In this document: positions 15,797 to 36,803 of the stretch, piece by piece
Layout: each line of letters opens with the position of its first letter
How positions within the stretch are numbered: the stretch's first letter is position 1
Assembly: GCA_018820395.1 (NCBI GenBank)
Contig: JAHJOG010000069.1
Span: forward strand, 1 to 58,542
From: Gammaproteobacteria bacterium
Lineage (GTDB): Bacteria; Pseudomonadota; Gammaproteobacteria; Burkholderiales; Burkholderiaceae_C
DNA: 58,542 nt
Direction: 5' to 3'
Made by a program: the position numbers and the translations under genes
The notes under the pieces: generated by a model
What the model was told of the DNA's origin: nothing
Seen by the model: the letters and a program-made list of their open reading frames with translations, nothing else
Databases searched by the model: none

Positions 15797-15853
15797 ATTC
15801 GAGCATGCACACCCCGGGGGTCGCAATGCGCGCGGGTCGATGGGGCCATGAGG
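15797..15853. promoter_or_regulatory. Shared catabolic promoter element, degenerate copy E
   Basis: Reading leftward, TTGCGA (rc of 15821-15826) and TCGAAT (rc of 15797-15802) are spaced 18 bases. ATTCGAGCAT matches the conserved ATTGCAGCAT of the other copies at 8 of 10 positions. GTCGATGGGGCCATGAGG (15836-15853) is a one-sided version of the conserved palindrome GTCGATG-N4-CATCGAC at the expected distance. The GCGACATC word is poorly kept. The right side has no promoter hexamers, and the gene on that side ends towards the element. This is the weakest of the six copies. Confidence 0.45.
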
Positions 15854-15906
15854 CTGGGCTGATGACGACCCGGCATCGCACCCGCGGCCCGACCCGCCGC
15901 GCACCT

Positions 15907-16830
15907 TCAGTGCATGCCTTCGGTCGTGTCGCGAAGCGCTGCGCGAAGCCACTGCAGCGCCGGGTCGGTGTGGCCGCGTGCATGCCAGTACATCGCAAGG
16001 TCGAGCGCACCGATGTCGAAAGGGAGTTCGAGGATCTGCAGTTGCTCGCGCTCAGCGCTTGAAGTGGCGATGCGGTCGGGGATCACGGCGAGCAGATCGG
16101 AAGTCGCGACGACCGCCGGCGACACCAGAAAGCTCGGCACGGTCAACGCGACCGTGCGTTGGCAACCCAGCCCGTCCAGCGCGCTGTCCACCAGGCTGTC
16201 GACGACGCTGTACGAGGTCTGCGACAGATTGAAGACCACGTGCGGAAACTGCAGGAACAGCTCCATCGTCAGCGATCCGCGGATGGCCGGATGGTCCGCT
16301 GCCGCGATGCAGCACGCGCGCTGGGCATAGAGCGGCGAGCTGTAGTAGTCCGAGGGAATGGTGCGCAGGCTGGAGATGACCAGTTCGACCTCGCCTTCGC
16401 GCAGCAGCTCGGCGGCGCGCCGCATGTCGCCGCTGGTCCAGCGGATGGTCAGCTGGGGCGCCTCACGGCGCACGCGCGCCATCAGCGACGGCAAGAAGAG
16501 CAGTGCCACCGCCTCGGTGGAAATCACGCGGATCGTGCGCTCGGTGGTGGCGATGTCGAAGTCGGTGCGCATGCGTTCCGGCGCATCGAGCACTTCGAAA
16601 GCCACCTGAATGGCCTTGGCGAGTTCGAGGGCATAGGGCGTCGGCTCCATGCCGCGCGCGGTCTTCACGAGCAGCGGATCCTTGAGCATGGCGCGCAGCC
16701 GGGCCAGCGTGGCGGACATGGCCGGCTGCCCGATCTGCGCGGCCTGCGCGGCCCGCGTGACGTGCCTTTCGGTGACGAGAGCCTTCAGCTGTTCCAGCAG
16801 GTGAAGGTTGATGTTGCGCGGCATCGTCAT
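15907..16830 (-). CDS. LysR-type transcriptional regulator (NodD/PcpR-like)
   Basis: The 307-residue regulator has an N-terminal helix-turn-helix: INLHLLEQLKALVTERHVTRAAQAAQIGQPAMSATLARLRAMLKDPLLVKT. A periplasmic-binding-like effector domain follows. The wording of the HTH (QPAMSATLARLR) and the MEPTPYAL segment resemble the NodD/PcpR/SyrM group. It is divergent from the SDR gene, with a perfect 11-bp inverted repeat between them at 16911-16941, the probable binding site. GGAGA lies before the ATG at 16830; MPRN two codons later is an alternative start. Confidence 0.92.
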   Translation of the reverse strand: MTMPRNINLHLLEQLKALVTERHVTRAAQAAQIGQPAMSATLARLRAMLKDPLLVKTARGMEPTPYALELAKAIQVAFEVLDAPERMRTDFDIATTERTIRVISTEAVALLFLPSLMARVRREAPQLTIRWTSGDMRRAAELLREGEVELVISSLRTIPSDYYSSPLYAQRACCIAAADHPAIRGSLTMELFLQFPHVVFNLSQTSYSVVDSLVDSALDGLGCQRTVALTVPSFLVSPAVVATSDLLAVIPDRIATSSAEREQLQILELPFDIGALDLAMYWHARGHTDPALQWLRAALRDTTEGMH

Positions 16831-16910
16831 GGGTGTCTCCGGTTCTTTCGAATCGGCTGCAAGACGATGACTCGGCGAGGCATCGAACGAACTCGATTCG
16901 GCTATCGATT

Positions 16911-16941
16911 GATCGCAATGGCGCCTCCGACCATTGCGATC
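16911..16941. promoter_or_regulatory. LysR-type operator: inverted repeat GATCGCAATGG-N9-CCATTGCGATC
   Basis: The 11-bp arms at 16911-16921 and 16931-16941 are perfect inverted repeats with a 9-base spacer, in the divergent region between the LysR and SDR genes. They contain the T-N11-A type spacing common in LysR boxes. The right arm ends in TGCGAT, which could serve as a -10 sequence. Six bases later lies ATG 16947, in frame with the SDR. Control of both genes by the LysR protein is inferred. Confidence 0.65.
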
Positions 16942-16973
16942 CTACGATGGGGCTTCAGTTTATTCACGAAATC

Positions 16974-17774
16974 ATGGACCTCGGAATCTCAGGCAAATGG
17001 GCCCTGGTGTGCGGTGCGAGCAAAGGCCTCGGATGGGGCTGCGCGAGTGCGCTGGTGCGCGAAGGCGTTCACGTGGTCGTGGTGGCGCGCGGCGCCAGCG
17101 CACTGCAGCAAGCCGTCGAGCGCCTGCGGGCGATCGGCGGCGCTTCGGGTTCGGCACAAGCGGTGCCGGTGGCAGCCGACATCACCACGTCGCAAGGCCG
17201 AGCCGCGGTGCTCGCGGTTCGAAGGGACTTCGACATCGTCGTCACGAATGCCGGCGGCCCGCTGCCCGGCGACTTCCGCGACTGGGACCGAGACACCTGG
17301 ATCGAGGCGCTCGACGCCAACATGCTCGCGCCGATCGAGCTGATCAAGGCCACGGTCGATGGCATGGTCGCGCGCGGCTTCGGCCGGGTGATCAACATCA
17401 CGTCGAGCGCGGTCAAGGCACCGATCGAGATCCTGGGGCTGTCGAACGGCGCGCGCAGCGGGCTCACCGGCTTCATCGCCGGCCTGGCGCGCACGAAAAC
17501 GCTGGCCCAGGCCAACGTGACCCTCAACAACCTGCTGCCGGGCGCGTTCGCCACGGAGCGCTTGCGCACCGCCATGGAAAAGGCCGGCAATGCGTTCGGC
17601 GGCAAGAGCTACGACGAGGTGGTGGCCGATCGCGTCCAGGGCATTCCGGCCCGGCGCCTCGGCACACCCGACGAATTCGGCGCGCTGTGCGCGTTTCTCT
17701 GCAGTGATCAGGCGGGCTACATCACCGGCCAGAACTTTCTGATCGACGGCGGCGCGTACCCCGGCACGCTCTGA
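16974..17774 (+). CDS. Short-chain dehydrogenase/reductase (SDR)
   Basis: This is a 266-residue classical-length SDR. GKWALVCGASKGLGWGCA is the cofactor-binding TGxxxGxG variant, VVTNAGG corresponds to NNAG, and NITSSAVKAPIEILGLSNGARSGL carries the catalytic Ser. The usual YxxxK is not kept: the corresponding stretch reads LSNGARSGL, where Ser-Asn replaces the Tyr. This variant is also seen in some 3-oxoacyl-ACP-reductase-like SDRs, so activity is uncertain. C-terminal GQNFLIDGGAYPGT is typical. An in-frame ATG at 16947 (MGLQFIHEI) lies six bases after TGCGAT and may be a leaderless start. 16974 is kept because family similarity begins there. Neither has a Shine-Dalgarno. Confidence 0.85.
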   Translation: MDLGISGKWALVCGASKGLGWGCASALVREGVHVVVVARGASALQQAVERLRAIGGASGSAQAVPVAADITTSQGRAAVLAVRRDFDIVVTNAGGPLPGDFRDWDRDTWIEALDANMLAPIELIKATVDGMVARGFGRVINITSSAVKAPIEILGLSNGARSGLTGFIAGLARTKTLAQANVTLNNLLPGAFATERLRTAMEKAGNAFGGKSYDEVVADRVQGIPARRLGTPDEFGALCAFLCSDQAGYITGQNFLIDGGAYPGTL

Positions 17775-17785
17775 GCGCTGCGCGC

Positions 17786-17856
17786 GCGACATCGGCGCGC
17801 GTCGATGTGCACATCGACTGGCAGGGATGGTGCGCGGAAAGCCGCTGCCAGATACT
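17786..17856 (+). promoter_or_regulatory. Shared catabolic promoter element, copy F
   Basis: GCGACATC (17786-17793), seven bases, then the perfect 18-bp palindrome GTCGATGTGCACATCGAC (17801-17818). Nine bases later TGGTGC (17828-17833) and GATACT (17851-17856) are spaced 17 bases. A start near 17863 gives a 20-base leader with AAGGA before the cupin ATG. The outer ATTGCAGCAT word of the bidirectional copies is absent here, which fits a one-way promoter lying just after the SDR stop. Confidence 0.65.
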
Positions 17857-17882
17857 GAAATCGCACAACACAAGGACCGGCC

Positions 17883-18377
17883 ATGAGCGCAACCATTCCT
17901 CGCCACGAACTGGAAATCAGGGACGTGACACCCGAGCAGATGAGCCGGCGCGTCGCGCGCTTCGACCAGCTCCAGGCCCCGCCCGACCGCTACCCGGACA
18001 GCCAGCTGCCCGGGCACGAGCGACGCAACTATCTCGTGATCGGGACCGGCCTGCAGGTCGAGGGCGGGAAAGATCCCCTGTCGGCCATCCCGGTCCGCGA
18101 GGGCTTCCAGATGTCCTATGTGGAAGCCCGTCCGGGCAACGGCCCCAAGCTCCACAACCACGACACGAACGAGACCTTCGTCGCGCTCAAAGGCCGCTGG
18201 CGAATCATCTGGGGGCTCGGTGAAGCGCACTCGGTGGACCTGGAACCGCTCGACGTCTGCGCCGTGCCGCCGTTCGTGCCGCGCCGCTTCATCAACCTCA
18301 CGCCTGGCGAGGGCAGCGACGTCGGCTTGCTGCTGGCCGTGCAGCCCGGCGACGCGCCGCGGGTCGAGTTCATCTGA
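17883..18377 (+). CDS. Single-domain cupin protein
   Basis: The 164-residue protein has one cupin domain at about residues 70-155. Cupin motif 1 is present as KLHNHDTNETFVALKG, giving the His-x-His and Glu metal ligands. In motif 2 (VPPFVPRRFIN) the usual His is an Arg, so the metal site may have three ligands. No signal peptide is seen. It leads an operon with a Bug protein 23 bases later and an RraA-family protein, driven by shared element F. A role in handling the imported organic acid is inferred; the reaction is unknown. Confidence 0.85.
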   Translation: MSATIPRHELEIRDVTPEQMSRRVARFDQLQAPPDRYPDSQLPGHERRNYLVIGTGLQVEGGKDPLSAIPVREGFQMSYVEARPGNGPKLHNHDTNETFVALKGRWRIIWGLGEAHSVDLEPLDVCAVPPFVPRRFINLTPGEGSDVGLLLAVQPGDAPRVEFI

Positions 18378-18400
18378 CAGCGCACCTGCGGAGACAGCCC

Positions 18401-19369
18401 ATGAAAAGATTTGCATGGTGGGCCGCCGCCTGGGCGGCCCTGGCCATCGGTGGCAGCGCGAGCGCGCAAGGCTATCCGGCACGGCCGATCAACATGGTCG
18501 TGCCCTTCGCCGCCGGCGGCATCGCCGACTCGACGGCGCGCCCCTTTGCCGAGTTCATGGCGAAGGCGCTCAAGCAACCGGTCGTGGTGCAAAACCGCGG
18601 CGGCGCCGGCGGTGCGGTCGGCACCGGCTACGCGGCTGTCGCAAAGCCCGACGGCTACACGGTGCTCTTCACGGTCGCGACCATTTCCGCGGTTCCGGAG
18701 GCCGAGCGGCTGAACGGTCGCAAGCCGCCATACGAGCTGTCGCAGTTCGCGCCGGTCGGTCTCTTGTCGGCCGAACCGCTGGTGCTGATCGCGCGCGCCG
18801 ATGCGCGCTGGACATCGGCCAAGGACCTCGCCGACGAAGCGCGAAAGAAGCCCGGCGCCATCAGCTACGGCTCGTCCGGCGCCTACGGGCCGGCCCATCT
18901 CTCGGCCGAGATGTTCGCGAGCGCCGCCGGCATCAAGCTGCAGCACATTCCCTTCACCGGCGCCGCGCCCGCGATGTCGGCCTTGCTCGGAGGCCACATC
19001 GACGTGTCGCTCTCGGCGATGGCGTCGGCCGTGCCCTACGTGCAGGCCGGCACGCTCAAGGCGCTGGCGACCTTCGGCACGCGGCGTTCCCCCGAGCTGC
19101 CCGACGTCCCCACCTTCAAGGAACTCGGCATCGACGTCGAGTTCGCCAACTGGGCCGGTCTCTTCGTGCCGGCCGGCACGCCGCCCGAAGCGGTGAACGC
19201 GCTGAGGTCCGCGATGCGCGAGGTTGCGAAAAGCCCCGAGTTCATCGCCACGATGAAGAAGATCGGACTGCCGATCGACTACCTCGACGCGCCCGCCTTC
19301 GCCGACTACTGGAAAGAAGATGCGCGGCGGCTCACCACCATCGTGAAGCAACTCGGTCCGGTGCAGTGA
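18401..19369 (+). CDS. Bug/TctC-family periplasmic substrate-binding protein
   Basis: The 322-residue protein has a signal peptide (MKRFAWWAAAWAALAIGGSASAQ, split as MKRFAWW then an Ala-rich core, cleaved near SASA-Q). YPARPINMVVPFAAGGIADST, VAKPDGYTVLF and GAAPAMSALLGGHIDVSL are Bug signatures. It is the middle gene of the cupin-Bug-RraA operon. The stop overlaps the GTG start of the RraA gene (GTGA), suggesting translational coupling. A Shine-Dalgarno-like GGAGA precedes the ATG. Confidence 0.93.
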   Translation: MKRFAWWAAAWAALAIGGSASAQGYPARPINMVVPFAAGGIADSTARPFAEFMAKALKQPVVVQNRGGAGGAVGTGYAAVAKPDGYTVLFTVATISAVPEAERLNGRKPPYELSQFAPVGLLSAEPLVLIARADARWTSAKDLADEARKKPGAISYGSSGAYGPAHLSAEMFASAAGIKLQHIPFTGAAPAMSALLGGHIDVSLSAMASAVPYVQAGTLKALATFGTRRSPELPDVPTFKELGIDVEFANWAGLFVPAGTPPEAVNALRSAMREVAKSPEFIATMKKIGLPIDYLDAPAFADYWKEDARRLTTIVKQLGPVQ

Positions 19370-20007
19370 GCAGCGAGGGCGCCTCCCTGGTGCGGGCTTT
19401 GGGCGCTTGCGCGACGGCGGATCTCGCCGACAGCCTGCCGGACCACGTGCAGGTCGCGCTCGGGCTGGTGCCGCGGCATGTCGCGGCCGGCACGTTGTGC
19501 GGCCCCGCGCTCACGGTGCGTGTGACTGCGGGCGACAACCTGTTGGCCCAGCATGCGATCGACCTGGCGCGTCCGGGCGACGTCATCGTGATCGACGGCG
19601 CCGGTGCGGCGGAACGCGCGCTGGTCGGCGAAATCATGAGCCGATGGGCCCATGCGCGCGGGGTGGCAGGCTTCGTCGTCGACGGCGCCGTGCGCGACCT
19701 GCACTGGTTGCGCCAGAGCCCCCTGCCCGTGTATTCGCGCAGCATCTCGCCGCGCGGTCCGACGCGCCACGGCGGCGGCGACATTCATGGCGAGGTCGTG
19801 GTGGGCGGCGCGGTGGTGCGTGCGGGCGACCTGATCGTGGGCGACCTCGACGGCGTGGTCTGCGTGCCGCCAGACCACGCCCAGGCTGCGATCGACGCCT
19901 GCGCGCGACTGATGGCGCGCGAGCGCGAAGCCGTCGACGCGATCGGGCGCGGCACGCTGTCGCGAGCCTGGATCCGTCAGGCGCTCGACGCCCGATCGTC
20001 GGCCTAG
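19366..20007 (+). CDS. RraA-family protein (HMG/oxaloacetate aldolase-like)
   Basis: Starting from GTG at 19366, which overlaps the Bug stop, this is a 213-residue RraA-fold protein. GALRALGACATADLAD-like N-terminal residues, GPALTVR, GDVIVIDG, GEIMSRWAHARGVAGFVVDGAVRD and GDLIVGDLDGVVCVP follow the family. The G-D/R-D motif (DGAVRD) binds divalent metal in the 4-hydroxy-4-methyl-2-oxoglutarate aldolase group. In a catabolic operon an aldolase or 2-oxo acid decarboxylase is more likely than an RNase E inhibitor. The GTG start is favoured because no nearby ATG gives the complete fold. The stop overlaps the convergent LysR stop. Confidence 0.87.
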   Translation: MSSEGASLVRALGACATADLADSLPDHVQVALGLVPRHVAAGTLCGPALTVRVTAGDNLLAQHAIDLARPGDVIVIDGAGAAERALVGEIMSRWAHARGVAGFVVDGAVRDLHWLRQSPLPVYSRSISPRGPTRHGGGDIHGEVVVGGAVVRAGDLIVGDLDGVVCVPPDHAQAAIDACARLMAREREAVDAIGRGTLSRAWIRQALDARSSA

Positions 20008-20924
20008 AACTTCGGCGACGACGCGCCCGAACTTCCCGCCATCTCGATGAACCGGCGTGCCGCCGGGCTCTCGTTGCCCGCGACATGAGCCATCGACAGG
20101 GTCGTCGCCGCGAAGGACGCTTCGCGCAGATCACCCGCATCGCCGACTTCGCGGTACACCACCCGCGGCGCGCGGTGGCCCCGCATCGTTTCGGGCACCA
20201 GCGCCACGCCGAGCCCGCTTTCGACCAGCGCCAGCACCGTGGGGATCTGCGTCGCCTCCTGCGCGACCACGGGCACGAAGCCCGCGCTTTCGCACGCGGC
20301 CAGCACGAGCGCATTCAGGCCCGCCGCGTGCGTCGCGCCGTACATGACGAAGGGCTCCCGGGCCAGGTCGGCGAGCACCAGATGCTCGGCAGAAGCCAGC
20401 GGATGCGCCGCGGGCAGCGCCATCAGCCAGCGATCGCGCTGCAGCACCTGCAAGGTCGCGCTGTGGGCCTGCAACAGCGGCGTGCGCACGATGCCGAGGT
20501 CGAGCGTCTCGTCGCCGAGCATCGCGACGATCGCCACCGACGTCGCTTCCCGCAGCACCAGCTGGACATTCGGGTACTGCGCACGAAAGCGCGGAATCAG
20601 CGCGGGAATCAGCTGGTGCGTGGCCGAGCCGACGAAGCCGATCCGCAGCAGGCCGCCCGTTCCGTCGGCGGCGGCTTGCGTGGCGAGCTGCATCTGCTCG
20701 CCGTGCCGGAGGATTCGTCGCGCCTCGACCAGCGCGGCCGCTCCGGCGGTGGTCATCCGCACGCCCGTGGGAGTCCGGTCGAAGAGCTTGTGGCCCAGTT
20801 CGGTTTCGAGCTTCTGGATCGACACCGACAGCGCCGGCTGCGCGATGTGCAGGCGATCGGCGGCCCGGCTGAAATTCAGCGTCTCGGCCAGTACGTCGAA
20901 GTGGCGAAGCCGTCGCAGGTCCAT
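20004..20924 (-). CDS. LysR-type transcriptional regulator
   Basis: The 306-residue regulator starts MDLRRLRHFDVLAETLNFSRAADRLHIAQPALSVSIQKLE, a classic LysR helix-turn-helix. A two-lobe effector domain follows, with MRLL-type motifs such as LRIGFVGSA. The wording is closest to the CatR/CbnR/BenM-like aromatic-pathway group. It lies 90 bases downstream of the enoyl-CoA hydratase gene on the same strand. It may regulate the acyl-CoA genes, whose divergent promoter carries a long inverted repeat, or the shared element regulon; the sequence does not decide. The ATG at 20924 is chosen over an upstream ATG because homology begins there. Confidence 0.92.
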   Translation of the reverse strand: MDLRRLRHFDVLAETLNFSRAADRLHIAQPALSVSIQKLETELGHKLFDRTPTGVRMTTAGAAALVEARRILRHGEQMQLATQAAADGTGGLLRIGFVGSATHQLIPALIPRFRAQYPNVQLVLREATSVAIVAMLGDETLDLGIVRTPLLQAHSATLQVLQRDRWLMALPAAHPLASAEHLVLADLAREPFVMYGATHAAGLNALVLAACESAGFVPVVAQEATQIPTVLALVESGLGVALVPETMRGHRAPRVVYREVGDAGDLREASFAATTLSMAHVAGNESPAARRFIEMAGSSGASSPKF

Positions 20925-21014
20925 GAGGGTCGATGACAAACTGCTTCGAGCATACCCGCGCACCGCGGCGAACGGGCTCGCTGCGGGCGTGCGAAGCGCG
21001 GCGCGCCGGCGGTG

Positions 21015-21809: not shown

Positions 21810-21862
21810 GGTGTGTGCTCCTCGAATGGGTAGGGCAAGACTAAGGCGAACAGCGCCGGGGC

Positions 21863-21929
21863 GTCCAATACCGAATGCGGCGCGGGCTATCGACTTTTCG
21901 TATGGCGTGGCGACGATTCGGTATTGGAC
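21863..21929. promoter_or_regulatory. Long-spaced perfect inverted repeat between divergent acyl-CoA genes
   Basis: GTCCAATACCGAAT (21863-21876) and ATTCGGTATTGGAC (21916-21929) are perfect 14-bp inverted copies whose centres are 53 bp apart, about five helical turns. They sit between the enoyl-CoA hydratase and acyl-CoA dehydrogenase starts. Two regulator dimers on the same helix face, with a DNA loop or a symmetrical divergent operator, are the simplest reading. Confidence 0.65.
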
Positions 21930-21960
21930 GGCCGATGCGACGCGGACTAAGTTCGACGTC

Positions 21961-21990
21961 ATGCCTTCGATTGCATTCCTTGCGCCATGA
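21961..21990 (+). CDS. Possible nine-codon leader peptide MPSIAFLAP
   Basis: ATG at 21961 opens a nine-codon frame whose TGA overlaps the acyl-CoA dehydrogenase ATG (ATGA at 21987-21990). The dehydrogenase has no Shine-Dalgarno of its own. The mini-frame starts seven bases after TAAGTT, a possible -10 that lies 18 bases from TTGGAC. It could be a leaderless coupling peptide. This rests on spacing alone. Confidence 0.3.
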   Translation: MPSIAFLAP

Positions 21991-27046: not shown

Positions 27047-27140
27047 AACATACGTGCGGCCCGGGCCCGCGTCCATGCGTGGCGGTCGATGCCGCCATCG
27101 ACGGCGGCGGATGTCGCGACCGCGCTTCGCATGCTGCAAT
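27047..27140. promoter_or_regulatory. Shared catabolic promoter element, bidirectional copy A
   Basis: Centre: GTCGATGCCGCCATCGAC (27085-27102), seven bases, GATGTCGC (27110-27117). Leftward promoter for TPP-1: TGGACG (rc 27070-27075), 17 bases, TATGTT (rc 27047-27052), with the ATG seven bases on. Rightward promoter for the bicupin: TGTCGC (27112-27117), 17 bases, TGCAAT (27135-27140) preceded by TGC, an extended -10. The rightward transcript would have a leader of about 90 bases with its own Shine-Dalgarno. Confidence 0.7.
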
Positions 27141-28433: not shown

Positions 28434-29894
28434 TCAGTCTGCGGGGCGAGCCGGCGCGGAGGCCGGCCCGAAGATCTTGCCGGGATTGAGGAGCGCGTCC
28501 GGGTCGAGCAGGGCCTTGATCTTCGCCATCATCTCGAACTCGATCGGCGGCTTCTGCTGCCGCACCCGTGCGCACTGGTCCGCGCCGACGCCGTGTTCGG
28601 CCGAGACCGACCCCCCGTAGGCCCAGACCAGTTCGTCGACCGCACGCACGATGTGTTCGCAGCGCCGATCGAACACGGGGTCGCCGGGCGTGCCGTCGGG
28701 CCAGATGCTCAGGTGCAGGTTGCCGTCGCCCACGTGGCCGAAAGCGATCACCTCCAAGTCCGCATGGATCGCGCGGGCGCGCGCTTCGGCCTCGGTCAGG
28801 AACGCGACGATGCAGTCGATGGGCAGCGACGCGTCCCACTTGAGCATCTTGCCGGTCATGAGCCGCATCGGCGTGATCTCGTCGCGCAGCTCCCAGAGAT
28901 TGCGCTCCTGCGCCAGGCTGCCGGCCAGCGCGGCGTCGGTGAGCAGGCCGCGCTCGAAGGCCTCGGCGAACAGCCGTTCGAGAAGGTCCGCGATGTCGTC
29001 GCCGCCGGAGAAGCGCACGAGCACATTCCATTCGGCGCGCGTCTCGATGGGTCGCACGAGCCTGCGATGCCGGGCCAGCGCCAGCTCGATCAGCCGGCCC
29101 GGAATCAGTTCGAAGGCGCTCAGGTGGGCATCGCCGACCGAGCGCGCCAGCGCGAAGAGTTCCATCAGCCGGCCGAAGTCGCCGACCGACGCGAACATCG
29201 TCTGCTCGCGCGGCGCGCGCGGGTGCAGGCGCATCACGGCCCGGGTGACGATGCCGAGCGTGCCTTCCGCGCCGATGAACAGCTGCTTGAGGTCGTAGCC
29301 GGAAGAGTCCTTGCGCAGCGCGCGCAGGCCGTTCCAGATGCGTCCGTCGGGCAGCACCACTTCGAGGCCGAGCACCTGCTCGCGCGTGTTGCCGAAGCGC
29401 AGCACGTTGATGCCGCCGGCATTGGTGGAAATGGCGCCACCGAGCATGGCCGAGCCGCGCGCGCCCCAGTCGAGCGCGAAGCTGCGGTCGACTTCCGCGG
29501 CCGCCTCCTGGATCGTCTGCACGATGCACCCGGCTTCGGCCGTGACGGTGAAGCGCAGCGGATCGATCGACACGATGCGGTTCATGCGCGCGAGCGAAAG
29601 CACGATGCAGGGCGCGCCGCCGGCGACCGGCACGGCCCCGCCGCACAGCCCGGTGTTGCCTCCCTGCGGCACGATCGCCACCCCATGCCGGCGGCAGATC
29701 GTGACGACGCTCGCCACCTCTCGCGTGCTCGCCGGGCGCACCACCAGTGCCGCCGGGCCGCGCCGGTGGCCGAACACGTCGGCCACGAAGGGCGCCGCGT
29801 CGTCACCCTCCAGCCAGCCGCGCGGCCCGAGCAGCGCCTTCAGTTCCTCGACGGCCGCCACCGGCGCGGCACGCCCGTCCGACGGCGTCGTCAC
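28434..29894 (-). CDS. FAD-linked D-2-hydroxyacid dehydrogenase (GlcD/D-lactate dehydrogenase-like)
   Basis: Starting at GTG 29894 (overlapping the Bug stop as GTGA), the protein has 486 residues. The PCMH FAD domain shows ALVVRPASTREVASVV, VPQGGNTGLCGGAVPV and GARGSAMLGGAISTNAGGINVLRFGN. The C-terminal FAD-oxidase domain ends with SVSAEHGVGADQ and LLDPDALLNPGKIF; the EHG His is the usual catalytic base. The family oxidises D-lactate, D-2-hydroxyglutarate, glycolate or related acids to 2-oxo acids. Co-transcribed with the upstream Bug gene from shared element B, it is probably the first oxidation step for the imported acid. Confidence 0.92.
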   Translation of the reverse strand: MTTPSDGRAAPVAAVEELKALLGPRGWLEGDDAAPFVADVFGHRRGPAALVVRPASTREVASVVTICRRHGVAIVPQGGNTGLCGGAVPVAGGAPCIVLSLARMNRIVSIDPLRFTVTAEAGCIVQTIQEAAAEVDRSFALDWGARGSAMLGGAISTNAGGINVLRFGNTREQVLGLEVVLPDGRIWNGLRALRKDSSGYDLKQLFIGAEGTLGIVTRAVMRLHPRAPREQTMFASVGDFGRLMELFALARSVGDAHLSAFELIPGRLIELALARHRRLVRPIETRAEWNVLVRFSGGDDIADLLERLFAEAFERGLLTDAALAGSLAQERNLWELRDEITPMRLMTGKMLKWDASLPIDCIVAFLTEAEARARAIHADLEVIAFGHVGDGNLHLSIWPDGTPGDPVFDRRCEHIVRAVDELVWAYGGSVSAEHGVGADQCARVRQQKPPIEFEMMAKIKALLDPDALLNPGKIFGPASAPARPAD

Positions 29895-30865
29895 TCGAGC
29901 CGGATGCCGGTGGCCTTGATCACCTTGCCGAACTTCTCGTAGTCGCTGGCGATCTCCTTCTTGAAGTCCTCGATCGAGCCGTGCGACGGCTCGAAGCCCG
30001 ACTCGCGCAGCTTCTGCACGACCGCGGGGTTGGCGAGCGTCTTGGCCCAGTCGGCGCGCAGCCGGTCGAGCACGGGCTTCGGCGTGGACGACGGCGCGAA
30101 GATCGCCTGCCAGCCCACCACGGTGGCGCCGGGATAGCGCTTGCCGATCGCGTCCGCGCCGGGGTAGGCGCTCATCGGCTTCGAGCCGGTGTGCGCGATC
30201 CGCCGCAGAGTCCCGGCCTCGATGTGCGCCTGCGAACCCGGGGGCGGCTCGAACACGCAGCTGAGCTGGCCGGACAACAGATCGGGCACGGCGAGCATCG
30301 ACGTCTTGTAGGGAACGTGCAGGATGTCGACGCCCGCGGCCTGCTTGAAGAGTTCCAGCGCGATGTGCGGCGGCGAGCCGATGCCGTAGGTTCCGCAGCT
30401 CAGCTTGCCCGGGTTCTTCTTCGCATAGGCGATGAACTCGTCGAGGTTGCGGATCGGCAGCTTCGCATCGACCACCACGATGTAGGGCGTGTCGCCGGTG
30501 CGCGCGACGGGCGTCAGGTCCTTCATGAAGTCGAAGGGCTGCTTGACGATCCACGGATTGATCGTGAGCGAGCTCGAGTTGAGCAGCAGCGTGTAGCCGT
30601 CGCCCGGCGCCTTCGCCACGGCGTCGGTGCCGATGGCGCCGGTGGCGCCCGGCTTGTTGTCGACCACGATGGGCTGGCCGAGCGCGTCGCGGAGCTTCTC
30701 GGCATAGGTGCGGCCCAGAATGTCCGACACGCCGCCGGCCGGATACGGCACGACCAGCCTGACGGGCTTGTTCGGGTAGTCGGCGGCAGCATGCGCCGGC
30801 GCGAGAGCCGATGCGACGGCGATGCAGGCGGCGAGCGCGCCGACGAGTCTTCTGAAACTGTTCAC
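29891..30865 (-). CDS. Bug/TctC-family periplasmic substrate-binding protein (paralogue of 36810-37826)
   Basis: Starting at GTG 30865 with GAAGGAGA upstream, this is a 324-residue Bug protein. Its signal peptide is VNSFRRLVGALAACIAVAS, ending near AHAAA. DYPNKPVRLVVPYPAGG, GDGYTLLLNSS and GSPPHIALELF are family motifs. By eye it is about two-thirds identical to the Bug protein at 36810-37826 across the mature part, including WQAIFAP and GKRYPGATVVG, so the two are recent duplicates. It is coupled to the FAD-linked dehydrogenase and driven by the leftward promoter of element B, with a leader of about 16 bases. Confidence 0.93.
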   Translation of the reverse strand: MNSFRRLVGALAACIAVASALAPAHAAADYPNKPVRLVVPYPAGGVSDILGRTYAEKLRDALGQPIVVDNKPGATGAIGTDAVAKAPGDGYTLLLNSSSLTINPWIVKQPFDFMKDLTPVARTGDTPYIVVVDAKLPIRNLDEFIAYAKKNPGKLSCGTYGIGSPPHIALELFKQAAGVDILHVPYKTSMLAVPDLLSGQLSCVFEPPPGSQAHIEAGTLRRIAHTGSKPMSAYPGADAIGKRYPGATVVGWQAIFAPSSTPKPVLDRLRADWAKTLANPAVVQKLRESGFEPSHGSIEDFKKEIASDYEKFGKVIKATGIRLE

Positions 30866-30887
30866 GGTGTGTCTCCTTCGACCGTGA

Positions 30888-30981
30888 ACGTTACGTGCGG
30901 GCACCGCCCGAGTCCATGCGCCGAGGTCGATGGCGTCATCGACGTTCACGGATGTCGCGCCGCGCCGCCCCATGCTGCAAT
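30888..30981. promoter_or_regulatory. Shared catabolic promoter element, bidirectional copy B
   Basis: Centre: GTCGATGGCGTCATCGAC (30926-30943), seven bases, GATGTCGC (30951-30958). Leftward promoter for Bug/FAD dehydrogenase: TGGACT (rc 30911-30916), 17 bases, TAACGT (rc 30888-30893). Rightward promoter for the porin: TGTCGC (30953-30958), 17 bases, TGCAAT (30976-30981), extended by TGC. The porin mRNA would have a leader of about 120 bases. In this copy both downstream genes have Shine-Dalgarno sequences. Confidence 0.7.
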
Positions 30982-31107
30982 GGCCGCGCTCGACAGGCAC
31001 GCCCCATCCCATTCGCGCGACGGGGCGGTATCGCGATCTCGAGTTCAAGCGCGTCCACGACGCGTTCCGACATCCGGAGACACATCTTGAACCCTGGAGG
31101 CAACTCA

Positions 31108-32355
31108 ATGAAGAAATCCCTTGTGGCCATCGCGAGCATGGCGGTGGCCGGCATGGCCTCGGCCCAATCGTCAGTCACCTTGTTCGGCGTGGTCGACGTC
31201 GGCGTCAGCAGCTTCTCGAACAAGAGCAACGACGTCACGCCCTACACGCTCACCAACGTCCTCACGCCCGGCTTCGCACCGGTCGGCAGCGTGAAGACCA
31301 CTCAGACGGCGTTGACCAACTCGGCCTACAACTCGAGCCGCCTGGGCTTTCGCGGCACGGAAGATCTCGGCGGCGGGCTCGCCGCCAGCTTCTGGCTCGA
31401 AGCACCCATCACCCCGGACGACGGCGCGACGGGCGTGTCCACCTTCGCTCGCCGGTCCACGGTGAGCCTGTCGGGAAGCTTCGGCGAGATCCGGCTCGGG
31501 CGCGACTACAAGCCGACCTTCTGGAATCACTCCATCTTCGCGCCCTTCGGCACGCTCGGCGTCGGCGGCAATCTGCTGCAGATCGCCAGCGGCACGCTGG
31601 AAGCCGGCGGCAACGTGCGCGCGAGCAATTCGGTCGGCTACTTTCTGCCGCCGAACCTGGGCGGCTTCTACGGCCAGGCCATGGTCGCCTTCCACGAGAA
31701 GACGTCGATCGACAGCGGCGCCTTCACGCCGGCGACCGGTGCCTTGTCCGACTCGCGCAGCGGCGGCTACACGGGCGCGCGGGTCGGCTTCGCCAGGGGC
31801 CCGTTCGACGTGGCCATCGCCGTCGGACGCAGCACCAACACGTCGAACTTCCAGCAGGGCCGCGACGAATACGCCAAGATCGCCAACCTCGGCGCGTCGT
31901 ACGACTTCGGCGTGGTCAAGCTCTTCGGCGAGTATTCGCAGACGAAGAATTCGATCGAGTTCGATCCCGCGGGCGTCGGCCGCACCGACAGCAGCACGAC
32001 CACCAAGGGTTACCTGGTCGGCGTGTCCGCACCGATCGGGCCGGGTCGCATCATGGCCTCGTACACGCGGGTTCGGCGCGATCTGCCGGACACCTTCAAC
32101 GCACTGGGCCTTCGCGTGTTCACGCCCGAGCCCCGCACCGACCACCTGGCGCTGGGCTACGTGCACAACCTGTCCAAGCGCACGGCCCTGTACGCCACGG
32201 TGGCGCGCATGAAGAACCGCAACGGTGCGGCCTACTCCGTGGTGGGCGGCCCGGCCTTCGCGACCTCGGTGATCAATCCGACGCTCGGCACGGCCGCCAC
32301 GCTCGTGCCGAGCACGTCGATCGGCTACGACATCGGCATCCGCCACGCTTTCTGA
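31108..32355 (+). CDS. Gram-negative outer-membrane porin
   Basis: The 415-residue protein has a signal peptide MKKSLVAIASMAVAGMASA cleaved before Gln20. The mature start QSSVTLFGVVDVGVSSF, then SRLGFRGTEDLGGGLAASFWLE, GEIRLGRDYKP and the terminal DIGIRHAF (aromatic last residue for BamA-dependent insertion) are typical of betaproteobacterial trimeric porins (Omp32/OpcP type). GGAGG lies ahead of the ATG. It is expressed divergently from the Bug/FAD-dehydrogenase operon through element B, so it is probably the dedicated outer-membrane entry for the acid taken up by the pathway. Confidence 0.94.
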   Translation: MKKSLVAIASMAVAGMASAQSSVTLFGVVDVGVSSFSNKSNDVTPYTLTNVLTPGFAPVGSVKTTQTALTNSAYNSSRLGFRGTEDLGGGLAASFWLEAPITPDDGATGVSTFARRSTVSLSGSFGEIRLGRDYKPTFWNHSIFAPFGTLGVGGNLLQIASGTLEAGGNVRASNSVGYFLPPNLGGFYGQAMVAFHEKTSIDSGAFTPATGALSDSRSGGYTGARVGFARGPFDVAIAVGRSTNTSNFQQGRDEYAKIANLGASYDFGVVKLFGEYSQTKNSIEFDPAGVGRTDSSTTTKGYLVGVSAPIGPGRIMASYTRVRRDLPDTFNALGLRVFTPEPRTDHLALGYVHNLSKRTALYATVARMKNRNGAAYSVVGGPAFATSVINPTLGTAATLVPSTSIGYDIGIRHAF

Positions 32356-32421
32356 GAACGAGTCGATCGAGCCGGACGCCCTCGCGGGCGTTCGGCCACG
32401 CGATGCATCCGCCGCAAGGAG

Positions 32422-33135
32422 CTATCGGGCCAGCAGGCGCCCGGCGAGGAAGGACATGGCGTCGGCCAGGCGCTCGCCTTCGAGCTCGCGATGCGGGCCC
32501 GGGTACGCGACCAGCCGCTTGTCGGGCGCACCGATCGCATCGAACAGCGTGAACGTGCCTTCGCGATCGAAGGTCTGGTCGTCCCACTGCTGCGTGAACC
32601 ACACGGGACAGGCGATGTCGCGCGCGTAACCGATCAGATGCTCGCTGGCCGGAAAGTTCATTCCCCACAGGCCGATGGCCGCGGCGCGGACGCGCCTTTC
32701 GGTCGCGAGCAGCGGAATGCCGTAGCCCGTGCCCATCGACACGCCGATGTAGCCGATGGGCAGGCCCTCGAAGCCCGGGAACTGCAGCAGCGCGTCGAGC
32801 GCGGCAACCATCTCGCGCGCCATGCTCGTGCGGCCGACGCCCTCTTTCCAGGCTTCGCGAAAGCTCTGCACCGCCACCTGCGGATCGAGGTTGCCGTCGG
32901 TGCGCCGATCGCCCTGCACCGGTCCGTCGATGGCGACCACAGCGAACCCGAGCGGCAGGCTCGCGCCAACGATCGCGAGGATGGCCGGCGACAGCTTGTG
33001 CCCGCTGCCGCCATGGCACGCGAGGACGATGCCCTTGCACTCGGCGGGCGCCCAGTAGACGGCTGGAATGACCGTGCCCTCCGATGCGACGGACAGCGGC
33101 CGGGCGGCCTTGCGGATCAGGTCCTGGTCGTTCAT
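32422..33135 (-). CDS. Alpha/beta hydrolase of the dienelactone-hydrolase type
   Basis: This 237-residue protein has IVLACHGGSGHKLSP (oxyanion region), IGYIGVSMGTGYGIPLL (nucleophile elbow G-x-S-x-G) and a C-terminal YPGPHREL (His). The Asp is probably within CPVWFTQQWDDQTFD. These follow the dienelactone hydrolase/acyl-peptidase-like layout. The substrate is unknown. The ATG overlaps the stop of the CoxG-like gene (ATGA), so it is the last gene of a three-gene operon begun by TPP-2 and promoter element D. It may cleave a lactone or thioester of the same pathway. Confidence 0.87.
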   Translation of the reverse strand: MNDQDLIRKAARPLSVASEGTVIPAVYWAPAECKGIVLACHGGSGHKLSPAILAIVGASLPLGFAVVAIDGPVQGDRRTDGNLDPQVAVQSFREAWKEGVGRTSMAREMVAALDALLQFPGFEGLPIGYIGVSMGTGYGIPLLATERRVRAAAIGLWGMNFPASEHLIGYARDIACPVWFTQQWDDQTFDREGTFTLFDAIGAPDKRLVAYPGPHRELEGERLADAMSFLAGRLLAR

Positions 33136-33752
33136 TTCGACGCCTCGGGCTGGGCTGCATCTTTTGCGGGGGCGGCCTGGCGGCGCGCATCGCCGCCGAA
33201 CACCCGCCGCTTGAGCCTGCGCAGCAGCGCGGTGATCACGGTCAGGGTCGACAGCGTGGCGCCTTCTGCCGGTGCGGCCGGGCTTTCGCCTTTGGAGGTC
33301 GCCTGTGCGTGGGCGCTGAAGCGCCGCGCGAACTCTGCAATGAGCGCTTCGGCCACGATGACGCCGCCCGCCTTGGCGAACTCGGCCAGCACACCGGTGA
33401 GCTGCGCCTCGGAATCGAGCTGCACCTCGGTGGCGGGCGGCCCGGCACCTTCGGCTGGCAAGAGGCGGTAGTTCATGGTGACGGCCATGCGCGCGCCGCG
33501 CACGTCGGCGCTCGCCTGGCCGACGAGCACGCCGGTGAGCGATTCGCGATCGACGCGGTTGGTCAGCTGTCCCTTGAAGGCGATCTTCTTCGGACCGAAG
33601 GAGGCCAGGAGCGTCGCCGGATAACTGCCATCGTCGCGCGGCGCTTCGACGCTCGCGCCCGGAAGAAAGCTGGCCATGAGCGGCACGTCGGCAAACTTTT
33701 CGACGACGTCGCGCGGCGCGCCGGTGATGACGAAACGGTTCTGAAAATGCAT
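33132..33752 (-). CDS. SRPBCC/CoxG-like protein
   Basis: The 206-residue protein begins MHFQNRFVITGAPRDVVEKFADVPLMASFLPGASVE, the start of CoxG (carbon monoxide dehydrogenase subunit G) homologues. LTGVLVGQASADVRGARMAV is also typical. Residues about 1-150 form an SRPBCC fold; the rest is Ala/Pro-rich with a basic tail (RRLKRRVFG). CoxG proteins recruit molybdenum CO dehydrogenases to the membrane, but no Mo-hydroxylase subunits are near. Here it lies between TPP-2 and the hydrolase in one operon. Its role is therefore open. Confidence 0.86.
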   Translation of the reverse strand: MHFQNRFVITGAPRDVVEKFADVPLMASFLPGASVEAPRDDGSYPATLLASFGPKKIAFKGQLTNRVDRESLTGVLVGQASADVRGARMAVTMNYRLLPAEGAGPPATEVQLDSEAQLTGVLAEFAKAGGVIVAEALIAEFARRFSAHAQATSKGESPAAPAEGATLSTLTVITALLRRLKRRVFGGDARRQAAPAKDAAQPEASK

Positions 33753-33761
33753 CGTGTTCCT

Positions 33762-35438
33762 TCAGCGTGTGCGAACCGGCCGCAGCAGCGGGATCCTGTT
33801 TTCTTGCGCCAGGAAGAGCCTGGAATAGGCGTCGCTCACCAGCGTGGGCGAAATGCGCGCGTCGATCACGAACGGCTTGTCGCTCGCGGCCGCACGGTCG
33901 ATCGCGCCGGCGATGTCGTCCTCGCGCGCGAGCACCATGCCGTCGCCGCCGAAGCCGCGGGCGATCGCCACGAAGTCGGGCGACGTCCACTGCGCGTCGC
34001 GGTGGTCGCGTCCCTTCCAGTGCATCTTCAGCACCTCGGCGCCGTAGGCCGAATCGTTCATCACCAGCACCGCGAGCCGCACTTTCTGCTCGGCCGCGGC
34101 ATGCAGTTCCTGGATGGCCTGCAGGAGGCTGCCGTCGCCTTCGACGAGCACGGTGAGCCGCCCCGGATCCGCGAGCGCGGCGCCGATCGCCTGGCCCAGC
34201 CCCAACCCGATGCTGCCGAAGGCGCCGGTGTGCTGAAAGCGCCCGCCGGGCGGCAGCGCAAGATGCGCAATGGGCCATGACCAGAAATGGCCGGCGCCTG
34301 AAACGACCTGCGTGTCGTTCGGCAAGGCGCGCGAGAGCGCTTGCATGAGCACGCGCGGATCGAGCCCGTCGGTCGCTCGCGGCGGCAGCGGCACCGGCGT
34401 GGCGAGCAGGTCGCGCGTGGCGGCCGTGCGGTAGCCGGTGGCCGGTGCGCCCTGCGCGCGCAGGGCGGCGAGCAGCGCTTCGGCGGTGCGCTTCGCATCG
34501 CCCTGAACATGCAGCCCGGGCGTCACGCCGATGGTCGCGGTGTAAGGCTTGGTGTCGATGCGGGCGACGTCGGCTTGCGCGAACAGCAACCCGCCTTCGC
34601 TCGTGAAGGCATTGAGCGATGCGCCGATGCCGAGCACGAAATCGGCCTGCGCCATCAAGGCCTCTGTCGGCGCGCTGCTGAACGAGCCCGAGATGCCGAG
34701 GTCGAAGGGGTGGCCGTCGAAGAAGCCCTTGGCCACGAGCGACGTGGCGAACAAGGCGCCCACGTGGTCGCCCAGCGCCTCGATGGCGGCACGCGCGCCG
34801 GCGTGCTGCGCGCCACGGCCCGCGACGATGATCGGGCGCTCGGCAGCGGCGAGCTGCCGTGCGAGTTCGGCGACCGCATCGGCCGACGCGGGCAGGTCGC
34901 GCCGCGGCACGAAGTCCGTCGAAGGCCGGTAGTCCCAGGGCCACTGCAGTTCGGCGTCCCAGTGCGCATGCGGGAGGTTGAGGATGACCGGGCACTGGCG
35001 CGTCCGCGCCGTGTAGAAGCCTTCGGCGACGTCCTCGGCCAGCGTGTCGAGCCTGGAGAGCGAGCGGTACTCGCACTCGCAGGCTGCAGCGAAGCGGCGC
35101 GTGTCCAGACCCTGCACGCTGGTCTTGCCGTCGTCCGGGTATTCGCCCGTGAGCACCACCAGCGGCGTGCCGGCGCGTGCAGCGCTGATCAGCGCGTTGG
35201 CACCGTTCGCCAAGCCCGGCCCGCAGGTGACGGTGACGATGCCGAGCTTGCCGCTCGCTTGCGCATAGCCGTCGGCCATCAGGATCGCAGCGCCGTCGTG
35301 ACGCGACCAGGCGATGCGCACGCGGGCGTCCGCCAAGAGAGAACCCCACAGCGCCATGTTGGCGTCGCCCATGAGACCGAAGACGACGCCGTCCGCCTCG
35401 AGGGCGAGCGCGTCGGCGAGTGCTTGACTGACTTTCAT
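33762..35438 (-). CDS. Thiamine-diphosphate enzyme, benzoylformate-decarboxylase/acetolactate-synthase-like (TPP-2)
   Basis: The 558-residue protein has KVSQALADALALEADGVVFGLMGDAN at the N-terminus (read as ADGVVFGLMGDAN), the middle domain, and the C-terminal EGDGSLLQAIQELHAAAEQ...MNDSAYGAE, the GDG-N cofactor site. At the place of the activating Glu the sequence reads WSRHDGAAILMADGY, with Asp where most relatives have Glu. TPP-1 in this window keeps Glu. The ATG at 35438 has no Shine-Dalgarno and is seven bases after TGCAAT of element D, predicting a leaderless mRNA. It leads the operon with the CoxG-like and hydrolase genes. A 2-oxo acid decarboxylase or lyase is likely. Confidence 0.88.
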   Translation of the reverse strand: MKVSQALADALALEADGVVFGLMGDANMALWGSLLADARVRIAWSRHDGAAILMADGYAQASGKLGIVTVTCGPGLANGANALISAARAGTPLVVLTGEYPDDGKTSVQGLDTRRFAAACECEYRSLSRLDTLAEDVAEGFYTARTRQCPVILNLPHAHWDAELQWPWDYRPSTDFVPRRDLPASADAVAELARQLAAAERPIIVAGRGAQHAGARAAIEALGDHVGALFATSLVAKGFFDGHPFDLGISGSFSSAPTEALMAQADFVLGIGASLNAFTSEGGLLFAQADVARIDTKPYTATIGVTPGLHVQGDAKRTAEALLAALRAQGAPATGYRTAATRDLLATPVPLPPRATDGLDPRVLMQALSRALPNDTQVVSGAGHFWSWPIAHLALPPGGRFQHTGAFGSIGLGLGQAIGAALADPGRLTVLVEGDGSLLQAIQELHAAAEQKVRLAVLVMNDSAYGAEVLKMHWKGRDHRDAQWTSPDFVAIARGFGGDGMVLAREDDIAGAIDRAAASDKPFVIDARISPTLVSDAYSRLFLAQENRIPLLRPVRTR

Positions 35439-35445
35439 GGCAGGC

Positions 35446-35501
35446 ATTGCAGCATCAATGCGCAGGGCGCGACATCCCGCCGAATCGATGGCGCCATACG
35501 C
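35446..35501 (-). promoter_or_regulatory. Shared catabolic promoter element, one-sided copy D
   Basis: Leftward promoter: TGTCGC (rc 35469-35474), 17 bases, TGCAAT (rc 35446-35451), with ATG 35438 seven bases on. GCGACATC (35469-35476), seven bases, then ATCGATGGCGCCATACGC (35484-35501), a copy of the palindrome with one arm eroded. On the right, TGGCTG is present but no -10 follows at 17 bases. The gene on that side ends towards the element, so no promoter is needed there. Confidence 0.62.
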
Positions 35502-35544
35502 GGCGGCACATGGCTGCGCGCGGCCGTGCTGCGCACGACGGTCA

Positions 35545-36702
35545 TCACGACGGACGCTGCCAGAGGATCTCCGAAGCGATGTCCTGGATGCGCGCGCACC
35601 CGGCCTGCGCCATGACGCGGTCGATCTCTTCGCCCAGGATCTGGATCGAGCGCCGCGCACCGGGCTCGCCGAAGGACGCGACGCCCCAGAGCACGGACCG
35701 GCCGACGAGCACGGCCGCAGCACCGAGCGCCAACGCCTTCACGATGTCGCTGCCGCGCTGGAAGGCGCTGTCGACCAGCACCGGCAGCCGGGAGTCGACC
35801 GCGGCGACGATGTCGGGCAGCGCGTCGATCGTCGCGATCGCGGCATCGAGGCTGCGGCCGCCATGGTTCGACACCACGATGCCGTCGACGCCGGCCGAAG
35901 CGGCCAGCCTCGCATCTTCCGGATGAAGAATGCCCTTCAGGAGCAGCTTGCCGGGAAACCGGTCGCGCAACTCCTGCACCGTGTCCCAATCGATCGACGG
36001 ATCGGCCTGATGAACGCCTCGGGCCGGCGGGTGCGCCATGCTCGGGAAGCCGGTGCCGAGCTGATGGCGCGCCGCGACGCCCATCAGCCAGCGCGGATGC
36101 AGGGCCACGTCCCAGACCAGCCGCGGGTTGAGAGTGATCGGCATGTGGAAGCCGTTCCGCACGTTGTATTCGCGCTTGGGCGCGACGGGTCCGTCGACCG
36201 TGAGGACGAGCGCTTCGTAGCCGGCGTGGCCGGCCCGGTCGACCAGCGAGCGCATGTGGTCGCGGTCGGTCGAGACGTAGAGCTGGAACCAGAGCCGGCC
36301 GCCCGGCGCCGCCTGGGCCACGCGCTCGAGCGACGTCACCGAGAAGGTCGAGAGGGTGTAGGGAATGCCGGCCGCCACGGCCGCACGCGCCGACAACACG
36401 TCGCCGTCATGCCAGAGCGTGCCGGCGACGGCCGTCGGTGCCACGGCGATCGGCAATTCCATCGGGCGGCCGAAGAGCATCGCTTCGGTGCTGCGTGCGG
36501 CCACGCCGCGCAGCACGCGCGGACGGATCTTGAGCCGATCGAGCGCGCTGCGGTTGGTGCCGAGCGCCAGTTCGTCCTCCGCGCCACGGTCGACGTATTC
36601 GAACAATGCCCTGGGCAGCCGGCGCCGGGCGGCCTCGCGCAGGTCGGCGATGTTGAGGGCGCGGGCCGGCCCGCTCGGCGAGCGCCAGTCACGTTGCAGC
36701 AT
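35545..36702 (-). CDS. FMN-dependent alpha-hydroxyacid dehydrogenase (mandelate/L-lactate dehydrogenase family)
   Basis: The 385-residue protein follows the glycolate oxidase/LldD/mandelate dehydrogenase fold. LPRALFEYVDRGAEDE, PIAVAPTAVAGTLWHDGDV, LYVSTDR, VLTVDGPVAPKRE, LLLKGILHPEDA (Lys) and GIVVSNHGGRSLDAA (catalytic His and Arg) are present. The usual DGGIRRG block reads DSAFQRGSDI, retaining the Arg. The family oxidises L-2-hydroxy acids. The ATG at 36702 is six bases after the -10 TGCAAT of element C and lacks a Shine-Dalgarno, so a leaderless mRNA is predicted. It complements the FAD-linked D-specific enzyme at 28434. Confidence 0.92.
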   Translation of the reverse strand: MLQRDWRSPSGPARALNIADLREAARRRLPRALFEYVDRGAEDELALGTNRSALDRLKIRPRVLRGVAARSTEAMLFGRPMELPIAVAPTAVAGTLWHDGDVLSARAAVAAGIPYTLSTFSVTSLERVAQAAPGGRLWFQLYVSTDRDHMRSLVDRAGHAGYEALVLTVDGPVAPKREYNVRNGFHMPITLNPRLVWDVALHPRWLMGVAARHQLGTGFPSMAHPPARGVHQADPSIDWDTVQELRDRFPGKLLLKGILHPEDARLAASAGVDGIVVSNHGGRSLDAAIATIDALPDIVAAVDSRLPVLVDSAFQRGSDIVKALALGAAAVLVGRSVLWGVASFGEPGARRSIQILGEEIDRVMAQAGCARIQDIASEILWQRPS

Positions 36703-36708
36703 GCGGGC

Positions 36709-36803
36709 ATTGCAGCATCGATGGCGAGGCTCGCGACATCCCGGCCCGCTGATGGCGCCATCGACGTCGGGACATGGATGCGGGGCGCCGCCGTGCCTAT
36801 GCT
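36709..36803. promoter_or_regulatory. Shared catabolic promoter element, bidirectional copy C
   Basis: GCGACATC (36733-36740), seven bases, GCTGATGGCGCCATCGAC (36748-36765). Rightward promoter for the Bug gene: TGGATG (36775-36780), 17 bases, TATGCT (36798-36803), then six bases to ATG 36810. Leftward promoter for the FMN dehydrogenase: TGTCGC (rc 36733-36738), 18 bases, TGCAAT (rc 36709-36714), then six bases to ATG 36702. Both mRNAs are predicted to be leaderless. Confidence 0.68.

Follow-up and report, generated by a model that had tools for sequence, protein, structure and literature searches.

The 58,542-nt contig JAHJOG010000069.1 of a Burkholderiales bacterium (assembly GCA_018820395.1; hereafter the window, meaning this whole stretch at its full length) carries a catabolic gene cluster in which seven gaps hold copies of a symmetric element with the 40-bp form CATS-N10-SATG-N4-CATS-N10-SATG. 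The copies are very probably operators of one LysR-type regulator, LysR1, which is encoded within the cluster and would control its genes for uptake and breakdown. The regulon would comprise three Bug receptors, a porin, a zinc-type dehydrogenase (MDR), a short-chain dehydrogenase (SDR), two thiamine diphosphate (ThDP)-dependent enzymes (TPP-1 and TPP-2), 2-hydroxyacid dehydrogenases linked to flavin mononucleotide (FMN) and flavin adenine dinucleotide (FAD), cupins, RraA, CoxG and a hydrolase. The computed evidence consists of the sites, their geometry and rarity, the offset of -10-like hexamers and the co-occurrence of the element with LysR1 homologues.

Form and Rarity of the Operator

The sequence-only reading of this DNA had described a pattern, GCGACATC-N7-GTCGATG-N4-CATCGAC, between genes at 17786, 27085, 30926, 35469 and 36733, with a degenerate copy at 15836. 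A pattern search found all five of the clear copies: the pattern is exact at 17786, 27085 (minus) and 30926 (minus), has two mismatches at 36733, and is also found at 35469 when one mismatch is allowed in GCGACATC-N7-GTCGATG. The palindrome at 17801 is perfect across 18 bp, as claimed. Alignment of both flanks of the reported sites revealed the symmetric 40-bp form, in which GCGACATC is one of two outer subsites placed at equal spacing on each side of the palindrome; the layout is an outer CATS subsite, N7, GTCGATG, N4, CATCGAC, N7 and an outer SATG. The 18-bp palindrome with a single flank was too narrow a description of the full element, since the outer subsites are two-sided. The bare skeleton of the form (AT-N12-AT-N6-AT-N12-AT) is exact in every copy in the window; the copies are as follows.

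Operator 1, 15825-15864: one mismatch to the symmetric 40-mer; upstream of MDR
Operator 2, 17790-17829: no mismatch; upstream of cupA-Bug1-RraA
Operator 3, 27074-27113: no mismatch; between TPP-1 and bicupin
Operator 4, 30915-30954: no mismatch; between Bug2-FAD oxidase and porin
Operator 5, 35473-35512: one mismatch; upstream of TPP-2-CoxG-hydrolase
Operator 6, 36737-36776: no mismatches to the loose 40-mer, two to the strict; between the FMN dehydrogenase and Bug3
Operator 7 (missed earlier), 16881-16920: skeleton exact; in the LysR1-SDR gap

The element is rare. With up to one mismatch, the loose 40-mer occurs at six places in the 5.28-Mb genome (331 contigs), and because all six are reported sites, the degenerate copy at 15836 is genuine. 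The strict 40-mer (with the GTCGATG core) returned four reported sites and nothing further in the same genome at up to three mismatches, and the 22-base core is found at four places (at most one mismatch), every one inside the window. Shuffles of the window gave an expected count of 0.00 for the full GCGACATC-N7-GTCGATG-N4-CATCGAC pattern, and among 299 genomes of the family the pattern GATGNNNNCATCGAC-N7-GATGTCGC, at up to one mismatch, was detected in one, namely the genome studied here. The 18-bp palindrome alone is less specific (17 genome places at up to one mismatch): a perfect extra palindrome at C101:13617 lies inside a long open reading frame and is without outer subsites, and a copy with one mismatch (15148-15165) lies inside the MDR gene.

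The window holds exactly seven instances of the bare skeleton, namely the six reported sites and 16881-16920. Base composition (G+C) alone predicts about 0.02, and 359 other symmetric spacings, used as decoys, averaged 0.145 instances and reached at most 3. An equal number of matches in random coding sequence would have counted against the sequence-only reading and did not appear: the 40-mer has no off-target place at up to one mismatch in the genome, and 294,387 bases sampled elsewhere in it, over 20 stretches, contained no skeleton. When each of the six sites was left out of the matrix in turn, scans of the window still recovered it among the top six matches.

The next-best matrix match in the window after these six is operator 7, which reads CATC-N10-GATT-N4-TATC-N10-AATG with all four AT steps exact. 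As it lies in the LysR1-SDR gap, it ties LysR1 to the regulon. An 18-nt inverted repeat (16904-16948; 83% complementary, with 9 nt between the arms) overlaps operator 7. An initial assignment of this repeat as a separate LysR1 operator was dropped.

Promoter Geometry

For each direction leading away from an operator, a -10-like hexamer was defined as one with at least four of six matches to TATAAT, its offset being counted outward from the SATGnnnn of the operator. The survey covered the window together with loci of other genomes described below (G304, two loci of G132, and G415), and comprised 22 gene-facing and 8 gene-less directions. Of the 22 gene-facing directions, 18 have such a hexamer at an offset of 17 or 18 bp; none of the eight gene-less ones does (Fisher p 8e-5). 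Over offsets 0-39, the gene-facing directions hold 14 hexamers at 17, four at 18 and at most one at any other offset; the background per position pair is 0.7% (window) to 1.5% (gaps). At operators 1, 2 and 5 just one side faces a gene start, and the other is without a -10-like hexamer. The predicted -10 hexamers in the window are listed here, with N17 and N18 denoting the offset.

MDR: TCGAAT, 15797-15802, minus, N18; ATG 7 nt downstream
SDR: TACGAT, 16943-16948, plus, N18
cupA: GATACT, 17851-17856, plus, N17
TPP-1: TATGTT, 27047-27052, minus, N17; ATG 7 nt downstream
Bicupin: TGCAAT, 27135-27140, plus, N17
Bug2: TAACGT, 30888-30893, minus, N17, only 3/6
Porin: TGCAAT, 30976-30981, plus, N17
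TPP-2: TGCAAT, 35446-35451, minus, N17; ATG 7 nt downstream
FMN dehydrogenase: TGCAAT, 36709-36714, minus, N18; ATG 6 nt downstream
Bug3: TATGCT, 36798-36803, plus, N17; ATG 6 nt downstream

A conserved CATTGCAGCAT near four of the sites was considered as part of a sigma-54 promoter and rejected, as the GG/GC spacing is unfit (by eye); it reads as the -10 region. When the hexamer is taken as -12 to -7, arithmetic on the predicted -10s places the centres of the two T-N12-A boxes (CATS-N10-SATG) at -64.5 and -42.5 and the operator axis at -53.5, with the near box spanning about -51 to -34 relative to the predicted start.

In five window genes (MDR, TPP-1, TPP-2, FMN and Bug3), the ATG follows the predicted -10 by only 6-7 nt, and their mRNAs are therefore predicted to be leaderless. 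In the open frame of the FMN dehydrogenase, codons 1 to 60 contain no ATG or GTG other than this one. The start of TPP-1 lines up with that of the G304 TPP-1 (by eye), and Bug3 has alternative starts. The leaderless layout is not conserved, as TPP-1, TPP-2 and FMN of G304 have longer leaders.

LysR1 Homologues in Other Genomes

The skeleton is also retained close to LysR1 homologues of four further genomes, whose identity to LysR1 ranges from 77% down to about 43%. Together with the operator copy in the gap upstream of LysR1 itself, this supersedes the earlier view that neither LysR gene of the window is clearly tied to the sites. G304 belongs to the same genus and has a rearranged yet recognisable version of the cluster (LysR1 77%, TPP-1 82% and hydrolase 78% identical), with LysR1 between FMN and bicupin. 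A 60-kb stretch of this genome holds four skeletons, and all four lie in gaps of the cluster (TPP-2/Bug, SDR/TPP-1, FMN/lysR1 end and porin/SDR); for cupA, Bug1 and RraA the stretch yielded no clear orthologue.

A LysR1 search of 399 genomes of the family, in which at most five candidates per genome were scored, gave matches with E-values of 1e-65 or lower only in the genome studied here, G132 and G415; G304 is absent from the same-genus genomes listed in that search. G132 and G415 were thus picked by LysR1 sequence alone, and both homologues are about 43% identical. The G132 skeleton lies between Bug-cupA and a hydrolase, with identities to the window genes of 75% for cupA and 40% for the hydrolase. 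G415 has one skeleton before Bug-SDR-LysR1 and one before a hydrolase-like gene of PF00144 (beta-lactamase family). A profile search returned 30 loci of about 3.9 kb, and the skeleton was present in the three loci of the LysR1 clade, which were in the profile by construction, and in none of the 27 more distant LysR loci.

Searching 340 genomes of the order with a profile turned up G496, a member from another family, whose LysR1 homologue is 44.5% identical. The prediction written before its DNA was read was confirmed (one test of one): a skeleton was expected near LysR1, next to genes for Bug, a hydrolase or a cupin, and with a -10 at N17/N18. There is one skeleton in 13,268 bases, located between Bug and bicupin, with the LysR1 homologue following Bug, and the -10-like hexamers TATTGT (4/6) and TCTAAT (5/6) are both at N17. 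A class-wide sample of 321 genomes yielded no further member. A LysR1-type regulator is encoded near an operator copy in the window (the LysR1-SDR gap) and also in G304, G132, G415 and G496. The constant 40-bp geometry, the invariable distance to the -10-like hexamer and the recurrence in other genomes strongly support the proposal that a single transcription factor acts at all of the sites.

Operators 3 and 4 resemble each other over a longer stretch on both sides, as would be expected if the copies were duplicated or mobile repeats, or promoters copied along with duplicated Bug and ThDP genes, and had no shared regulator. Such an origin is very improbable: between most copies it is the spacers that vary, the AT steps and the distance to the -10 being fixed, the skeleton persists by LysR1 homologues in other genera and another family, and the gene-less sides are without a -10.

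LysR1 as the Proposed Regulator

LysR1 carries PF00126 (HTH_1, the helix-turn-helix domain) and PF03466 (LysR substrate domain), both above cut-off, and its residues 4-297 align with PDB 1utb, an entry listed as a LysR-type regulatory protein (E 2.1e-42) that we take to be DntR. Full-length homology to this structure is a feature that LysR1 has in common with the NahR/DntR/LinR/MexT group, and the MexT ligand domain is a distant match of LysR1. The GTCGAT core presumably matches the MexT/nod-box motif, which differs in spacing and of which searches of open-access literature gave no confirmation.

The centres of the two T-N12-A boxes are 22 bp, or two helical turns, apart. A tetramer of LysR1 could thus occupy a single face of the helix, each box being bound by one of its dimers. 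The far box (about -64.5) would be the recognition site and the near box (about -42.5) the activation site. Because the operator is symmetric, each box could serve as recognition site for one promoter and as activation site for the divergent promoter, and one bound, induced tetramer would switch both flanking gene sets. Joint control of divergent genes is predicted at operators 3, 4 and 6, and operator 7 may serve both SDR and autoregulation of lysR1.

According to PMC4730206, LysR regulators generally act as tetramers and shift on induction; their high-affinity site is often located around -65, and the sites they bind more weakly lie near -35 and -10. The predicted position of the far box, about -64.5, is close to the first of these. 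The T-N12-A spacing is unusual yet known for PcaQ of Sinorhizobium and CutR of Mycobacterium (PMC12609908 and PMC5002191, in excerpt). These two share the spacing with the present operator and differ from it in half-site sequence, and the excerpt of PMC12609908 describes no symmetric second box for either, unlike the operator here. In the same excerpt, CutR has its IR1 at -60, forms a dimer, and has no identified activation site. For many LysR regulators one of the divergent promoters is that of the regulator's own gene (PMC3180648, in excerpt), whereas here the operator apparently stands between two structural-gene promoters. This operator was not found described in the excerpts of open-access literature covering the MexT motif, Bug/LysR regulons and LysR operators of divergent or symmetric kind. 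It is commonplace for a LysR regulon to have adjacent operators; the variant for which no description was found in that literature is the symmetric double box for two structural promoters, with its rigid spacing carried to another family. More tentatively, with confidence a little short of even, we propose a LysR subclass with a perfectly symmetric two-box operator, in which one tetramer switches two structural-gene promoters, several of them leaderless, and in which the fixed spacing, with N17 to the -10, would make the whole regulon readable from raw sequence near the LysR gene.

Several points weigh against LysR1 acting in this way. Binding by LysR1, the tetramer, activation, the inducer and the leaderless starts are inferred from sequence. 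All seven window sites have T-N12-A and the common T-N11-A is not found, so the box has an accepted LysR-type spacing only through this variant; the near box is at -42.5, as against published activation sites near -35 and -10 (PMC4730206, in excerpt). The N17/N18 rule was derived on the window and then applied to the other loci, and it misses at LysR1 (1/6), Bug2 (3/6), TPP-1 of G304 (3/6) and the G132 hydrolase (2/6), LysR1's own predicted promoter thus being without a -10 at the rule offset. In the G304 stretch the four skeletons would not be remarkable by number alone, as nine of the 359 decoys score higher there; the three decoys with printed positions all fall in one tandem repeat of 6-bp period near 14.2-14.4 kb.

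The reach of the skeleton is also narrow. Among eight intermediate LysR loci of 20 kb (E 2e-73 to 9e-89), four of which are also among the 27 distant loci, the skeleton is present in one (L089) and absent from seven, and the rule therefore holds for a narrow LysR1 clade only. The L089 skeleton (L089:10031-10070, from G132) lies beside a more distant LysR (34% identical to LysR1) and has TCCAAT at N18 on the side of a hydrolase homologue (39%), with an ATG following 6 nt after the hexamer. The locus has another skeleton at 4437, away from this LysR and near a different LysR-type gene. The operator type may extend slightly beyond the LysR1 clade. The strict 40-mer, at up to three mismatches, occurs in 8 of 100 genomes of the genus including the one studied here, at ten places outside the latter. 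One of these, in G304 (L017), is in the cluster, and eight of the other nine (G386:C61 not among them) were scanned for the skeleton. It was present in two, G392 and G311, at a shared locus (L014:1501-1540 and L018:1501-1540) between response-regulator-like and kinase-like genes (by eye), a two-component-like setting; genes were inspected at L013, L014 and L018 of these eight loci. The G311/G392 skeleton is either a chance match, such as could arise over some hundreds of megabases, or an unrelated site, and the skeleton alone is not diagnostic.

In G304, lysR1 has no operator directly upstream, and it may there be part of a porin-bicupin-lysR1 operon. This arrangement, and the inner palindrome with its conserved GTC/GAC bases beyond the AT steps, would also suit another dimeric regulator (of IclR, GntR, CRP/FNR or TetR type) encoded elsewhere and binding the central 18 bp, with LysR1 a mere neighbour. 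We regard this as unlikely. The outer AT steps are conserved like the inner ones in the six window sites (2.6-2.7 bits each) and are kept in other genera, whereas a CRP/FNR-type site would be a single inverted repeat with no further subsites. The LysR1 loci of G132 and G415 keep the four AT steps and lose much of GTC/GAC, and G496 keeps that part on one side only. The palindrome alone is found in coding DNA without outer subsites, and the predicted -64.5/-42.5 geometry resembles LysR layouts.

LysR2 and Its Gene Block

The other LysR gene of the window, LysR2 (20004-20924, minus), is conserved in the same G304 cluster (69%) and might on that ground be thought to control the operators. This is highly improbable, as its own block (ECH, acyl-CoA dehydrogenases and CoA-transferase) is without the skeleton in both the window and G304, and the ECH-ACD1 gap of the window has a different inverted repeat, GTCCAATACCGAAT / ATTCGGTATTGGAC, that is near-identical in G304. 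Moreover, in the stretches analysed the skeleton of LysR1 homologues occurs without a LysR2 match at L036 (G132) and L097 (G496), and with a partial match of 25% at L037 (G415). LysR2 most likely has an operator of its own, judging from these sequences.

In the same gap, positions 21859-21933 hold an inverted repeat, GGGCGTCCAATACCGAAT / ATTCGGTATTGGACGGCC, near-identical in G304. It is probably an operator of LysR2 or of the ECH-ACD1 genes.

Genes of the Cluster

The genes discussed above are located in the window as follows.

14797-15789, minus: MDR zinc-type dehydrogenase
15907-16830, minus: LysR1, proposed regulator, with LysR helix-turn-helix and substrate domains
16974-17774, plus: SDR (start picked by eye)
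17883-18377, plus: cupA, cupin-like (slightly under the Pfam cut-off)
18401-19369, plus: Bug1 (TctC receptor)
19372-20007, plus: RraA-like (start codon not fixed)
20004-20924, minus: LysR2
25342-27039, minus: TPP-1, ThDP-dependent enzyme
27237-28427, plus: bicupin
28434-29894, minus: FAD-linked oxidase, GlcD-like (under the GlcD cut-off; start picked by eye)
29891-30865, minus: Bug2 (TctC receptor)
31108-32355, plus: porin
32422-33135, minus: hydrolase (weak Pfam match; homologues in G304 and G132)
33132-33752, minus: CoxG-like (weak Pfam match)
33762-35438, minus: TPP-2, ThDP-dependent enzyme
35545-36702, minus: FMN 2-hydroxyacid dehydrogenase, lactate/mandelate type
36810-37826, plus: Bug3 (TctC receptor; exact start uncertain)

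The nearest PDB entries to the FMN enzyme are lactate oxidases and mandelate dehydrogenases. TPP-1 belongs to the PRK08199 ThDP subfamily (above cut-off), and TPP-2 is nearest to BbmA and acetolactate synthases while falling under the cut-offs of the NCBI families shown. These assignments make it plausible that the regulon specifies a route of Bug-type uptake, oxidation of 2-hydroxy acids and then ThDP-dependent cleavage of 2-oxo acids. A TPP-2 search of genome contigs gave three loci only, and a plasmid search returned no match at E 1e-60. In Variovorax KK3 (L008), a pair of TPP-2 (69%) and CoxG (56%) homologues is part of an unrelated cluster with a TetR gene, and that stretch has no skeleton.

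Rfam searches across the window at gathering thresholds returned only a tRNA and a fluoride riboswitch. The riboswitch (RF01734; 40204-40275, minus) lies upstream of a CrcB gene (39628-40062), and the tRNA is a tRNA-Ser (CGA) at 43300-43389, minus.

Significance

The analysis proposes a regulator for an uncharacterised catabolic cluster of the Bug/2-hydroxy-acid type, together with a sequence rule whose single blind test, in another family, was successful. Should one symmetric site indeed activate two divergent structural promoters, the operators would offer a clean natural system for studying what decides which box a LysR tetramer uses for recognition and which for activation, as well as a ready two-way inducible promoter. 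The leaderless mRNAs predicted within the same regulon are a further oddity that can be tested.

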